Assembly: GCA_030532035.1 (NCBI GenBank)
Contig: JAUNLX010000002.1
Location: 62,001-126,000, forward strand
Origin: Clostridia bacterium
GTDB taxonomy: Bacteria; Bacillota; Clostridia; Oscillospirales; Acutalibacteraceae
Length of the DNA: 64,000 nt
Direction of reading: 5' to 3'
Positions within the stretch are counted from its first letter, which is position 1. Each line of letters begins with the position of its first letter. The notes beneath the pieces are model-generated. The model was given only the letters and a program-made list of their open reading frames with translations. It was not told the DNA's origin and made no database searches. Positions 52,161-57,509 of this stretch are shown one piece after another. The position numbers and the translations under genes were made by a program.

Positions 52161-52208
52161 AAAAAATACGGTAACTGATATTTAAATCAATTACCGTATT
52201 GATATGTG
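52161..52208 (-). repeat. 48-bp repeat, copy 1 (terminator hairpin)
   Basis: Identical over 48 bp to 53596-53643. It contains a perfect 10-bp inverted repeat (AATACGGTAA / TTACCGTATT) with inner pairing, and on the minus strand is followed by six T. It therefore works as a minus-strand Rho-independent terminator, here behind the gene at 52266-52556. Confidence 0.9.
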
Positions 52209-53595: not shown

Positions 53596-53641
53596 AAAAA
53601 ATACGGTAACTGATATTTAAATCAATTACCGTATTGATATG

Positions 53642-53643
<2 letters not shown>
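53596..53643 (-). repeat. 48-bp repeat, copy 2 (tRNA terminator)
   Basis: Identical to 52161-52208. Read on the minus strand it begins at the last two bases of the tRNA 3' end and forms the tRNA terminator: a 10-bp stem with a run of six T. The two copies are direct repeats 1435 bp apart. Confidence 0.9.
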
Positions 53644-53717
<74 letters not shown>

Positions 53718-53762: not shown

Positions 53763-53802
53763 ATAAAATTACCCTACTTACTGACAATCAATAAGTAGGG
53801 TA
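53763..53802 (-). terminator. terminator of the pnt operon
   Basis: An 11-bp perfect stem (TACCCTACTTA / TAAGTAGGGTA) with an 11-nt loop, followed on the minus strand by AATTTTATTT. Confidence 0.88.
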
Positions 53803-53822
53803 GATATTCATATTAAATATTC

Positions 53823-55868
53823 TTAGAAATACTTAAAGAGTTTTTGAATATTCTCTTTAGCATCGCCGAGACTTAAAATAACATGGTTATTCGATTTGTT
53901 AGCTTCTTCATAGAGGGGGTTGTCAACACCAGCATAACCAGGTTGTAAATCGTAATTTAAAATCAGTACATGTTTAGCTTCATTTACGCTTAAAACAGGC
54001 ATTCCATAAATTGGCGTGCCTTCAGCTGTATTAGCGGCGGGGTTTATAACGTCATTTGCACCAATTACGATTGCTAAATCAGTTTCTTTAAATTTGCAGT
54101 CAATTTCATCCATCTCATGAAGTTTTTCATATGGAATATCAACTTCAGCAAGTAAAACATTCATGTGACCAGGCATTCTTCCAGCAACTGGATGAATTGC
54201 AAATTCAACATTTTTACCATTTTGTTCAAATTCTTGTGTGAGTTGTTTAACAAGAGGCTGAGCTTGAGAAAGAGCCATTCCATATCCAGGAACAATGATG
54301 ATGTTTTTAGCTTCATCAAACCATGAATGAAGTGTATCTTCGTCACTTCCCGCTTGTACATTTGCTCTTGCTGCTGCCTTTTCTTCGGGAGAAACGCTTC
54401 TTGCTTTTTTAATTTCAGTAAGGCTGTCTTTTGCATCTCCTAAAAGTAAAACAACGTGTTCATTTGATTGTTGAGCTTCCTTGTATAGCGGATTTTCAAC
54501 GCCAGCATAACCAGGTTGTAAATCGTAATTTAAAATCAATACATGTTTAGCTTCATTTACGCTTAAAACGGGCATTCCATAAATTGGCGTACATTCAGCT
54601 GTATTGGCAGCGGGGTTTATAACGTCATTTGCGCCGATAACAATAGCCAAATCAGTTTCTTTGAATTTGTCATCAATTTCGTCCATTTCGTGAAGCTTTT
54701 CATATGGAATATCAACTTCAGCAAGTAAAACATTCATATGACCAGGCATTCTTCCGGCAACTGGATGAATTGCAAATTCAATATTTTTTCCTTCTTGTTC
54801 AAGCTCTTGAGTAAGTTGTTTAACAAGAGGTTGAGCTTGGGAAAGAGCCATTCCATATCCAGGAACAATGATGATGTTTTTAGCTTCATTTATAAATTCT
54901 GCAGCTATATCTTGTGGATTTTCTGAAACAACTTCTTCGACTTTTTCTGACTCAACAGGTTCTACAGGAGCTCCTTTAGTTTCTTGTTTCTCGCCTGGTT
55001 TAACACTACAAGCAGCTGAAGTTTTTCCGAGAAGAATATCGAAGAGTTTTCTGTGCATTGCATTACACATTATTTGTGTTAAGAGTAATCCAGAAGCACC
55101 AACGATAGCTCCTATGGAAACGAGTAAGAGGTCGGAAATAGCTAAACCAGCTATAGCACCTGCAACACCAGAACAAGAATTCAAAAGAGAAATTGTTATT
55201 GGCATATCTGCTCCGCCAACTCTGATAGCGAAGAAATAACCAAATAAATTAGAAGCTAAGATATCAACTAAAATTAAAATTGTTTGTGCTGTTCCAGGGA
55301 CATTGAAAGGTGGGAAAGCAAACATTATTGTAGAAACTACGGCTACAGCAAGGCAAATACCGGTAAATATAGCGTGGCCTTTGAAAACTACAGGTTTTTG
55401 TTTTATTATTCTTTGAAGTTTTCCGGCAGCAATTGCTGAACCTAAGAAAGTAAGACCGCCGACAAAAATAGCAAGACCAGAAGTAACATTTGCAAAAACA
55501 TTATTGTCATTATGCAAAATCAAAGTCAAAATACCAGCTATCATTGAAGCTAAACCACCGAAACCATTTAGCAAGGCTACCATTTGTGGCATTTGAATCA
55601 TTTTTGTCTTTCGTGAAATGACAACTCCGATTAATCCACCGATTAACATTGCTATATATAGTTCTTTGGCAGTAAAAATTTTGAAATTCCAAAGAGTTAA
55701 CACAATTGCTCCGAGCATCGCTCCAGCACCGAGCAAATTACCTTTTACAGATGATGAAACTTTCGACATCATATTTATGCCGACCATAACTAAGATTACG
55801 AGAACAGCAGATATAATGTAATAAAAAGCGCCATTTGTAATAGAAGGATCTAATGAAAAATTACCCAT
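53823..55868 (-). CDS. pntB: transhydrogenase beta subunit PntB with duplicated domain III
   Basis: 681 residues against about 460 for ordinary PntB. Residues 1-280 are the proton-conducting membrane domain (MVALLNGFGGLAS, ISLLNSCSGVAGAIAGLAI). A Pro/Glu linker (285-320) leads to two NADP(H)-binding domains III, about 325-490 and 516-681, offset by 191 residues and nearly identical. Both have VPGYGMALSQAQ, HPVAGRMPGHMNVLLAE, GANDVINPAANTAE and QPGYAGV. Where the family has Lys-Arg-Ser for the 2-phosphate of NADP(H), both copies have Asn-Tyr-Asp (447-449, 638-640). Sits last in pntAA-pntAB-pntB. Confidence 0.93.
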   Translation of the reverse strand: MGNFSLDPSITNGAFYYIISAVLVILVMVGINMMSKVSSSVKGNLLGAGAMLGAIVLTLWNFKIFTAKELYIAMLIGGLIGVVISRKTKMIQMPQMVALLNGFGGLASMIAGILTLILHNDNNVFANVTSGLAIFVGGLTFLGSAIAAGKLQRIIKQKPVVFKGHAIFTGICLAVAVVSTIMFAFPPFNVPGTAQTILILVDILASNLFGYFFAIRVGGADMPITISLLNSCSGVAGAIAGLAISDLLLVSIGAIVGASGLLLTQIMCNAMHRKLFDILLGKTSAACSVKPGEKQETKGAPVEPVESEKVEEVVSENPQDIAAEFINEAKNIIIVPGYGMALSQAQPLVKQLTQELEQEGKNIEFAIHPVAGRMPGHMNVLLAEVDIPYEKLHEMDEIDDKFKETDLAIVIGANDVINPAANTAECTPIYGMPVLSVNEAKHVLILNYDLQPGYAGVENPLYKEAQQSNEHVVLLLGDAKDSLTEIKKARSVSPEEKAAARANVQAGSDEDTLHSWFDEAKNIIIVPGYGMALSQAQPLVKQLTQEFEQNGKNVEFAIHPVAGRMPGHMNVLLAEVDIPYEKLHEMDEIDCKFKETDLAIVIGANDVINPAANTAEGTPIYGMPVLSVNEAKHVLILNYDLQPGYAGVDNPLYEEANKSNNHVILSLGDAKENIQKLFKYF

Positions 55869-56257: not shown

Positions 56258-57418
56258 TTAGTCGAGATTCATTGCTTCTCTTGCACCTTTGTGAACGATT
56301 TCACCGTCAATTGTGCAGAGAGATTTTGCAATAATTTCGTCAGCGCGATCTAATGTAATTTGACCGTCTTTAACGAGATATTTAACAAAGTTAGCAATGT
56401 TCTTAGAGAACATCCATGTTGAGCTCTTTGGAAGCATTCCTGGAATATTTTTAATTCCAATAAGAGTAACATTATGTTTAACTTCAACTGTTCCGGGAGG
56501 AGTGATTTCACAGTTTCCACCTTGGTCGATAGAAATATCAACGATTACAGAACCGGGTTTCATGGTCTTTACCATATCTTCTGTTATAAGAATTGGTGCA
56601 AGACAACCGGGAACTAAAGCAGAACAGAAAATAACATCCATTTCAGGAACGATTTCTGCGAGTTTTTCTCTTTCAGATTTGAGTGTATCTTCAGGTAATT
56701 CTAAAGCATATCCACCTTCGCCGATAGCTTGTTCTTCGGGAACACCGAGGTCAACAACCTTAGCACCGAGGGATTTTGCTTGTTCTGCAGCAGCAGGTCT
56801 GATATCAGCTGCGTGAACAACAGCACCAAGTCTCTTAGCTGTTGCAAGAGCTTGAAGACCGCCAACACCTGTTCCGATAACTAAAACATTTACAGGATCA
56901 ATTCTACCAACAGCAGAATAAATCATGGGCATAAATGATGGAAGATGATTTGCTGCCAACAAGATACCTTTATATCCTGCACAGGTACTCATTGATGTAA
57001 GTGCATCGAGATTTTGTGCTCTTGAAATACGGGGAACACCGTCAAGAGTAAGGGAGATAACACCTTGTTTTGCCATTTCTTTAACCATGTCGTGATTCAC
57101 GGGAGCTGCAGGGTGAATGAATGTAATTAAATATTGTCCCTCGTGCATCATCGAAACTTCAGATCTACCTTTTTCTTCATTGAAGAGCGGTTCTTTAACC
57201 TTTAAGATAAGATCAGATTTTGCGAAAACTTCTTCGCAGTCGTCTACCATTTCAGCGCCAGCAGCTTTGTAATCTTCATCGTGATAAAAAGATCCAACGC
57301 CAGCATTTTTTTCAACTAAAACAGTGAGACCCAAATCAACCATATCTTTTACAGTTTCGGGAGTAGCCGCTACCCGATATTCGCCGGGCATAATTTCCTT
57401 AGGTACGCCAACTATCAT
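56258..57418 (-). CDS. pntAA: transhydrogenase alpha-1 subunit (NAD(H)-binding domain I)
   Basis: 386 residues. It has IVGVPKEIMPGEYRVAATPE, the loop RISRAQNLDALTSMSTCAGY (the Arg-Gln-Asp set of PNT domain I), and a Rossmann motif VLVIGTGVGGLQALATAKRLG ending in an acidic strand end (AADIRPAA), as for NAD(H). The family is close to alanine dehydrogenase; the adjacent pntAB and pntB decide for transhydrogenase. Start at ATG 57418 behind GGAGG; the frame is open further upstream. Confidence 0.92.
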   Translation of the reverse strand: MIVGVPKEIMPGEYRVAATPETVKDMVDLGLTVLVEKNAGVGSFYHDEDYKAAGAEMVDDCEEVFAKSDLILKVKEPLFNEEKGRSEVSMMHEGQYLITFIHPAAPVNHDMVKEMAKQGVISLTLDGVPRISRAQNLDALTSMSTCAGYKGILLAANHLPSFMPMIYSAVGRIDPVNVLVIGTGVGGLQALATAKRLGAVVHAADIRPAAAEQAKSLGAKVVDLGVPEEQAIGEGGYALELPEDTLKSEREKLAEIVPEMDVIFCSALVPGCLAPILITEDMVKTMKPGSVIVDISIDQGGNCEITPPGTVEVKHNVTLIGIKNIPGMLPKSSTWMFSKNIANFVKYLVKDGQITLDRADEIIAKSLCTIDGEIVHKGAREAMNLD

Positions 57419-57480: not shown

Positions 57481-57509
57481 AATATAACACTCGGTTAATG
57501 ACCTGTCAA
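57481..57509 (-). promoter_or_regulatory. promoter of the pnt operon
   Basis: Minus strand: TTGACA (57509-57504), 17 bp, TATATT (57486-57481); an almost consensus promoter, suggesting strong expression. Confidence 0.85.

Follow-up and report, generated by a model that had tools for sequence, protein, structure and literature searches.

A clade of transhydrogenase-like complexes with one to four domain III copies and an alanine dehydrogenase-like active site, predicted to bind NAD(H) at both nucleotide sites

The beta subunit of the membrane transhydrogenase PntAB normally carries a single nucleotide-binding domain III (dIII). In a 64,000-nucleotide stretch of a Clostridia bacterium genome (the window), the corresponding protein carries two behind one membrane domain (dII), which raises the question of what such an enzyme does with both. 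The gene forms part of a consecutive minus-strand series, pntAA-pntAB-pntB (Table 1), in a genome of 1.13 Mb that is 96% complete and encodes one PntB; a search of that genome found no second protein of the AlaDH/PNT N-terminal family besides PntAA, the domain I (dI) subunit. The start of pntAA is most likely the ATG behind a GGAGG sequence, as given in Table 1, and not the upstream TTG of the listed reading frame. Two identical palindromic repeats of 48 bp, the only two in the genome, were also observed at 52161-52208 and 53596-53643; each has the score of a terminator-like hairpin on the minus strand, and a tRNA-Met gene (53642-53717) immediately precedes one of them.

Table 1. Features of the pntAA-pntAB-pntB locus, in window coordinates.
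Feature	Position	Strand	Basis
pntB, 681 aa: dII and two tandem dIII copies	53823..55868	-	ORF, Pfam profile, repeat alignment
dII, residues 1-284, nine membrane helices	55017..55868	-	structure alignment and model
dII-dIII linker, residues 285-314, low-confidence in model	54927..55016	-	predicted structure
dIII copy 1, residues 321-490	54399..54908	-	repeat alignment
Asn447-Tyr448-Asp449 replacing K-R-S, copy 1	54522..54530	-	alignment with solved structures
Linker between dIII copies, residues 491-511	54336..54398	-	repeat alignment, model
dIII copy 2, residues 512-681	53826..54335	-	repeat alignment
Asn638-Tyr639-Asp640 replacing K-R-S, copy 2	53949..53957	-	alignment
pntAB (alpha2), 101 aa, first dII membrane helices	55869..56174	-	profile and alignment
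pntAA (alpha1, dI), 386 aa, start ATG at 57418	56258..57418	-	profile, alignment
TG-extended promoter match ahead of pntAA, TTGACA-17-TATATT	57481..57509	-	pattern match only
Terminator-like hairpin just past pntB	53770..53802	-	pattern match only

The Pfam profile PF02233 matches the 681-residue PntB at 3.4e-229 in two stretches, and a whole-genome profile search placed both dIII copies in a single open frame. The direct repeat inside the gene has a spacing of 573 bp and a nucleotide identity of 86% over a 300 bp core, so the tandem pair reported in a preliminary description of this DNA is borne out by the repeat, the reading frame and the profile search alike. The copies are near-identical over approximately residues 328-470, with dissimilar linker and C-terminal tail regions; the difference of Cys426 against Gly617 that had been remarked upon was recovered in the alignment. 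Between the copies (residues 325-480) Ks is 0.51, Ka 0.064 and Ka/Ks 0.125, from which it follows that the duplication is old and that both copies are under purifying selection. Each retains the counterparts of E. coli Y315, R350 and D392 and folds as a dIII in the predicted structure, in line with the earlier view that neither is obviously dead; judged by residues and model, both look functional. The possibilities that one copy is dead, or that the copies differ in specificity, were considered and rejected, as the same residues are retained in all copies.

The duplication had been presented as an addition to a normal PntB, with a search for further examples proposed. That search was productive, and a duplication private to the window was rejected: one scan of genome contigs, using patterns first drawn from the window protein and hence favouring near relatives, yielded 61 relatives whose reading frames carry one, two, three or four tandem dIII domains. 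In a survey of 398 genomes of the same phylum, PntB was matched in 53, and tandem dIII occurs in many of these. Two and four copies occur in the single-contig genomes G634 and G641, respectively, and two assemblies named Porphyromonas uenonis (L019 and L021) have three each. The carriers are labelled as Bacillota, Bacteroidota, Desulfovibrio, Riflebacteria, Atribacteria and Kosmotogaceae, groups known for anaerobes. Tandem dIII was absent from a sample of 60 plasmid-borne PntBs taken along the full ranking: in each, the two window copies match the same stretch, no longer than about 600 bp. Neither tandem dIII nor the clade formed by these relatives was found described in the open-access literature searched.

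Metagenome assemblies account for most of the relatives, and gaps or frame changes interrupt several arrays. Copies were counted in the 66 complete, unbroken PntBs of the clade, leaving out L026, L044, L049, L059 and L063: one dIII was found in 29, two in 16, three in 15 and four in six. Tandem copies are thus not required for function, since single-copy members exist. The PntBs that retain the K-R-(S/G) motif discussed below (K-R-type) have one dIII in 11 of 11 cases (Fisher p = 0.0005 against the clade, for related and so not independent sequences). Four of the broken arrays (L026, L049, L059 and L063) run over two or more reading frames in different phases, which may reflect sequencing errors, decay or real frameshifting. 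In six PntBs (L028, L035, L048, L053, L062 and L064) the membrane domain is preceded by some 80-140 additional N-terminal residues, which may represent alpha2 fused to beta.

On the dII tree, which separates the clade from the K-R-type enzymes with 99% support, copy number changed at least 23 times within the clade, and the state changed between tandem and single at least 14 times. The dIII copies of one protein are often each other's closest match (92-98% in L009, 94-99% in L102), suggesting that duplication has recurred or that gene conversion has taken place. A different pattern is seen in L017, L018, L022, L057 and L120, where the two copies are 55-63% alike and the best counterpart in another species reaches about 90%; here copies 1 and 2, though clearly diverged, keep separate identities across species, position by position. 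Copy 1 of these five reads NYD and copy 2 NLD at the motif described next. In the window's own order a PntB match was found in 10 of 394 genomes, the only tandem one seen being the window's, and horizontal acquisition of this gene is likely.

Although dIII was initially described as NADP(H)-binding, this is probably not the case here. The K-R-S motif, together with loops D/E, sets the specificity for NADP over NAD (PMC9529548), and in alignments with solved structures E. coli Lys424-Arg425-Ser426, T. thermophilus K-R-G and sheep K-R-S all fall on Asn-Tyr-Asp in the window protein, neither copy of which has the K-R-(S/G) motif for the NADP 2'-phosphate. An N-x-D triplet, with Tyr, Leu, Phe, Arg or Met in the middle, was found in 139 of the 139 readable dIII copies of the clade, and the Y315, R350 and D392 equivalents are present in every copy where they could be read. 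At the cut-offs used, only five dIII columns separate the clade from the K-R-type proteins, and two of these are the first and third residues of the motif. The replacement of the 2'-phosphate motif in every copy leads us to predict that dIII of the clade binds NAD(H) and not NADP(H).

A second departure was found in dI. The window PntAA has Arg15, Lys75, His102 and Asp298, equivalent to Arg15, Lys75, His96 and Asp270 of L-alanine dehydrogenase (AlaDH), in addition to the RQD loop of transhydrogenases. In AlaDH, pyruvate is bound by Arg15 and Lys75, the catalytic residues are His96 and Asp270, and Ala substitution of these four abolishes activity (PMC4691113, PMC10401832). While Arg15 is common to all groups compared, Lys75, His96 and Asp270 (AlaDH numbering) are present in 71 of 71 fully readable clade dI sequences and 15 of 15 AlaDH, and in 0 of 17 K-R-type dI; this K-R-type comparison set is small (17 dI; 11 PntB plus those of E. 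coli and T. thermophilus). Of the columns conserved in AlaDH, 18 are shared with the clade dI only and none with the K-R-type dI only. Across the whole of dI, the clade is barely closer to AlaDH (34% identity) than the K-R-type is (28%), so that the active site stands out. The transhydrogenase side of dI is also retained, with the RQD-loop Gln and Asp and the NAD-type Asp202 each in 73 of 73 clade sequences, and the AlphaFold2 model of the window PntAA (pLDDT 93) has R. rubrum dI as its best match. With the AlaDH catalytic set and the RQD loop and Asp202 coexisting, dI appears to keep both hydride partners, an organic substrate and dIII. The AlaDH-like site and the N-x-D motif co-occur without exception.

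These observations are best combined in a mechanism to which we give a little less than an even chance: a lineage in which hydride passes between an amino or 2-oxo acid, the NAD of dI and the NAD of dIII, coupled to ion movement through dII. Both nucleotide sites would bind NAD(H), and the NAD of dI would act as a relay. With no dIII docked, its hydride partner would be an amino/2-oxo acid, as it is in alanine dehydrogenase; with dIII docked, the partner would be the NAD(H) of dIII, which in turn would equilibrate with the cytosolic pool. Movement of dIII would gate ion transfer through dII, as in the ordinary transhydrogenase, and extra dIII copies would provide more hydride shuttles for each dI and membrane domain. 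An organic substrate is proposed because NAD at both sites would by itself give no net chemistry, while a substrate would supply the driving force. If the complex runs in the probable fermentative direction, NADH would drive the reductive amination of a 2-oxo acid and an ion would be pumped out of the cell, the model case being the conversion of pyruvate to alanine. NADH-dependent reductive amination of pyruvate releases about 35-40 kJ/mol under standard conditions, which is enough to export an ion.

The substrate, direction and coupling ion of the clade enzyme are what we infer, and alanine may not be the substrate, given that the substrate loop of the clade dI reads H-P-A instead of the H-L-A of AlaDH. 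No conserved neighbour gene indicating a substrate was found in the gene neighbourhoods of the clade loci; genes resembling those of aromatic amino acid metabolism, recognized by eye, lie near some members of the L017, L018, L022, L057 and L120 subgroup. Ordinary AlaDH is also present in some carriers (G423, G495 and G500), and a complementary distribution of the two enzymes was considered, with no conclusion kept from the few genomes.

The same residues could also belong to an NAD(H)-type transhydrogenase that has no organic substrate and serves as a redox-gated ion conductance or NADH sensor, the AlaDH-like residues being a relic or a docking surface. The universal N-x-D and the NAD-type dI agree with this, and the AlaDH-like residues may be merely ancestral. 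In trees with AlaDH as outgroup, the K-R-type dI form one clade. A quick tree had nested the NADP transhydrogenases within the clade described here, an arrangement that was dropped when holding the clade dI together gave a better likelihood than the free search (AU p 0.85). Either the AlaDH-like site is ancestral and disappeared from the NADP transhydrogenases, or it was regained; the first course is the simpler one, but the long AlaDH branch leaves it unproven. Against this explanation, an enzyme without substrate would bring about no net chemical change, and a gated leak would dissipate the ion gradient to no purpose. Moreover, Lys75, His96 and Asp270 are invariant even though dI identity within the clade falls to 48%, which argues for a working active site. 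We consider this explanation unlikely.

If the substrate is organic, it could still be turned over by a membrane-anchored amino/2-oxo-acid dehydrogenase with no ion coupling, in which dII is a scaffold and dIII an NAD(H) reservoir. The complete set of dI active-site residues would suit such an enzyme, as would the state of the proton channel: across most of the clade, the window included, Asn replaces E. coli beta His91 and Ser replaces T. thermophilus alpha2 His42. With these pumping histidines missing in most members, coupling may have been lost or another ion may be used. Their absence is not decisive for placing the enzyme outside PntAB, because some K-R-type PntBs of Clostridia lack both too; L003, L065, L066, L067 and L075 are K-R-type with one dIII, Asn at beta 91 and Ser at alpha2 42. 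Loss of the channel histidine was accordingly rejected as a mark of the clade, the more so as Desulfovibrio members have His at beta 91, which itself speaks against a lack of coupling. So does the conservation of dII, in which Asp213 is found in 77 of 77 and Arg265 in 74 of 77 clade PntBs (the pair is kept in the window), together with the clade-specific Arg at 208 (75 of 77), Thr at 217, Ser at 98 and alpha2 Thr at 45. An uncoupled dehydrogenase is rather unlikely on this evidence. The window genome encodes a V-type ATPase rotor subunit (G000 contig C12, 5957-6373, locus L143) whose LPGTQG...VETY pattern appears to resemble that of sodium-type enzymes, so the coupling ion of the clade enzyme, if there is one, may be sodium as well as the proton.

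An ordinary proton-translocating NAD/NADP transhydrogenase with a spare dIII would require N-x-D to bind NADP(H) in another way. The overall fold and most catalytic residues are indeed those of a transhydrogenase, and many clade members have a Lys at position 428, near the site. The window copies, on the other hand, have no positive residue at 424-429 and place an Asp at the presumed phosphate position, and N-x-D is always paired with the AlaDH-like site. The NCBIfam transhydrogenase scores also fall below their cut-offs (535 against 689 for PntB; 363 against 383 and 325 against 444 for PntAA), and this alternative is quite unlikely. A mis-assembled second copy can practically be discounted: tandem repeats assemble poorly and many relatives are metagenome assemblies, but a duplicated assembly would give identical copies, whereas those of the window differ at 14% of DNA positions and, in the silent-site comparison that had been suggested earlier, at the Ks reported above, and arrays of two and four copies stand in single-contig genomes.

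We return, then, to the ion-coupled amino/2-oxo-acid mechanism. More tentatively than the mechanism itself, the clade may represent a widespread and undescribed class of bioenergetic enzyme of anaerobes, in which transhydrogenase parts make up an amino-acid (2-oxo acid) dehydrogenase that pumps ions. It would bind NAD(H) at each of its nucleotide sites, use dIII shuttles in varying number and possibly resemble the ancestor of the NADP transhydrogenases. If both inferences are true, the present annotation as NADPH-producing transhydrogenases is wrong for many proteins of anaerobes from the gut, mouth, rumen and digesters; these proteins would link amino-acid/2-oxo-acid metabolism to the ion gradient, and metabolic models would change. 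The path from a soluble dehydrogenase to an ion pump might also come into view. The stoichiometry question that two dIII domains per membrane domain first raised still stands and has become sharper. In the dimer of the ordinary enzyme, the two dIII are thought to alternate, one facing dI and the other the membrane (PMC5742237), and natural variants in dIII number per membrane domain would be a direct test of this model.

Among known systems, the closest in organization is the three-gene type of PntAB/NNT represented by Thermus thermophilus and Rhodospirillum rubrum, with which the window locus shares the gene set and the order alpha1-alpha2-beta, the folds of dI, dII and dIII, the RQD loop and Asp202, the Asp213-Arg265 pair and the GYGMA and GAND motifs. 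The clade differs in having dIII one to four times, N-x-D for K-R-S/G, AlaDH catalytic residues in dI and, in most members, neither of the known channel histidines. With L-alanine dehydrogenase (Ald, TIGR00518), PntAA shares the Pfam families AlaDh_PNT_N and AlaDh_PNT_C and, besides the four active-site residues, the equivalents of E76, Q271, M133, S134 and N300; it differs in its RQD loop, which Ald lacks, in His-Pro-Ala for His-Leu-Ala, in the membrane subunits encoded alongside, and in a TIGR00518 score of 208 bits where the cut-off is 392. Eukaryotic transhydrogenases are likewise rearranged, there by fusion of alpha and beta in either order (alpha-beta, beta-alpha), and what is mentioned for them is tandem whole genes, not tandem dIII domains (PMC7614955). 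From these comparisons of sequence, the clade is best read as a lineage of its own among membrane transhydrogenase complexes.
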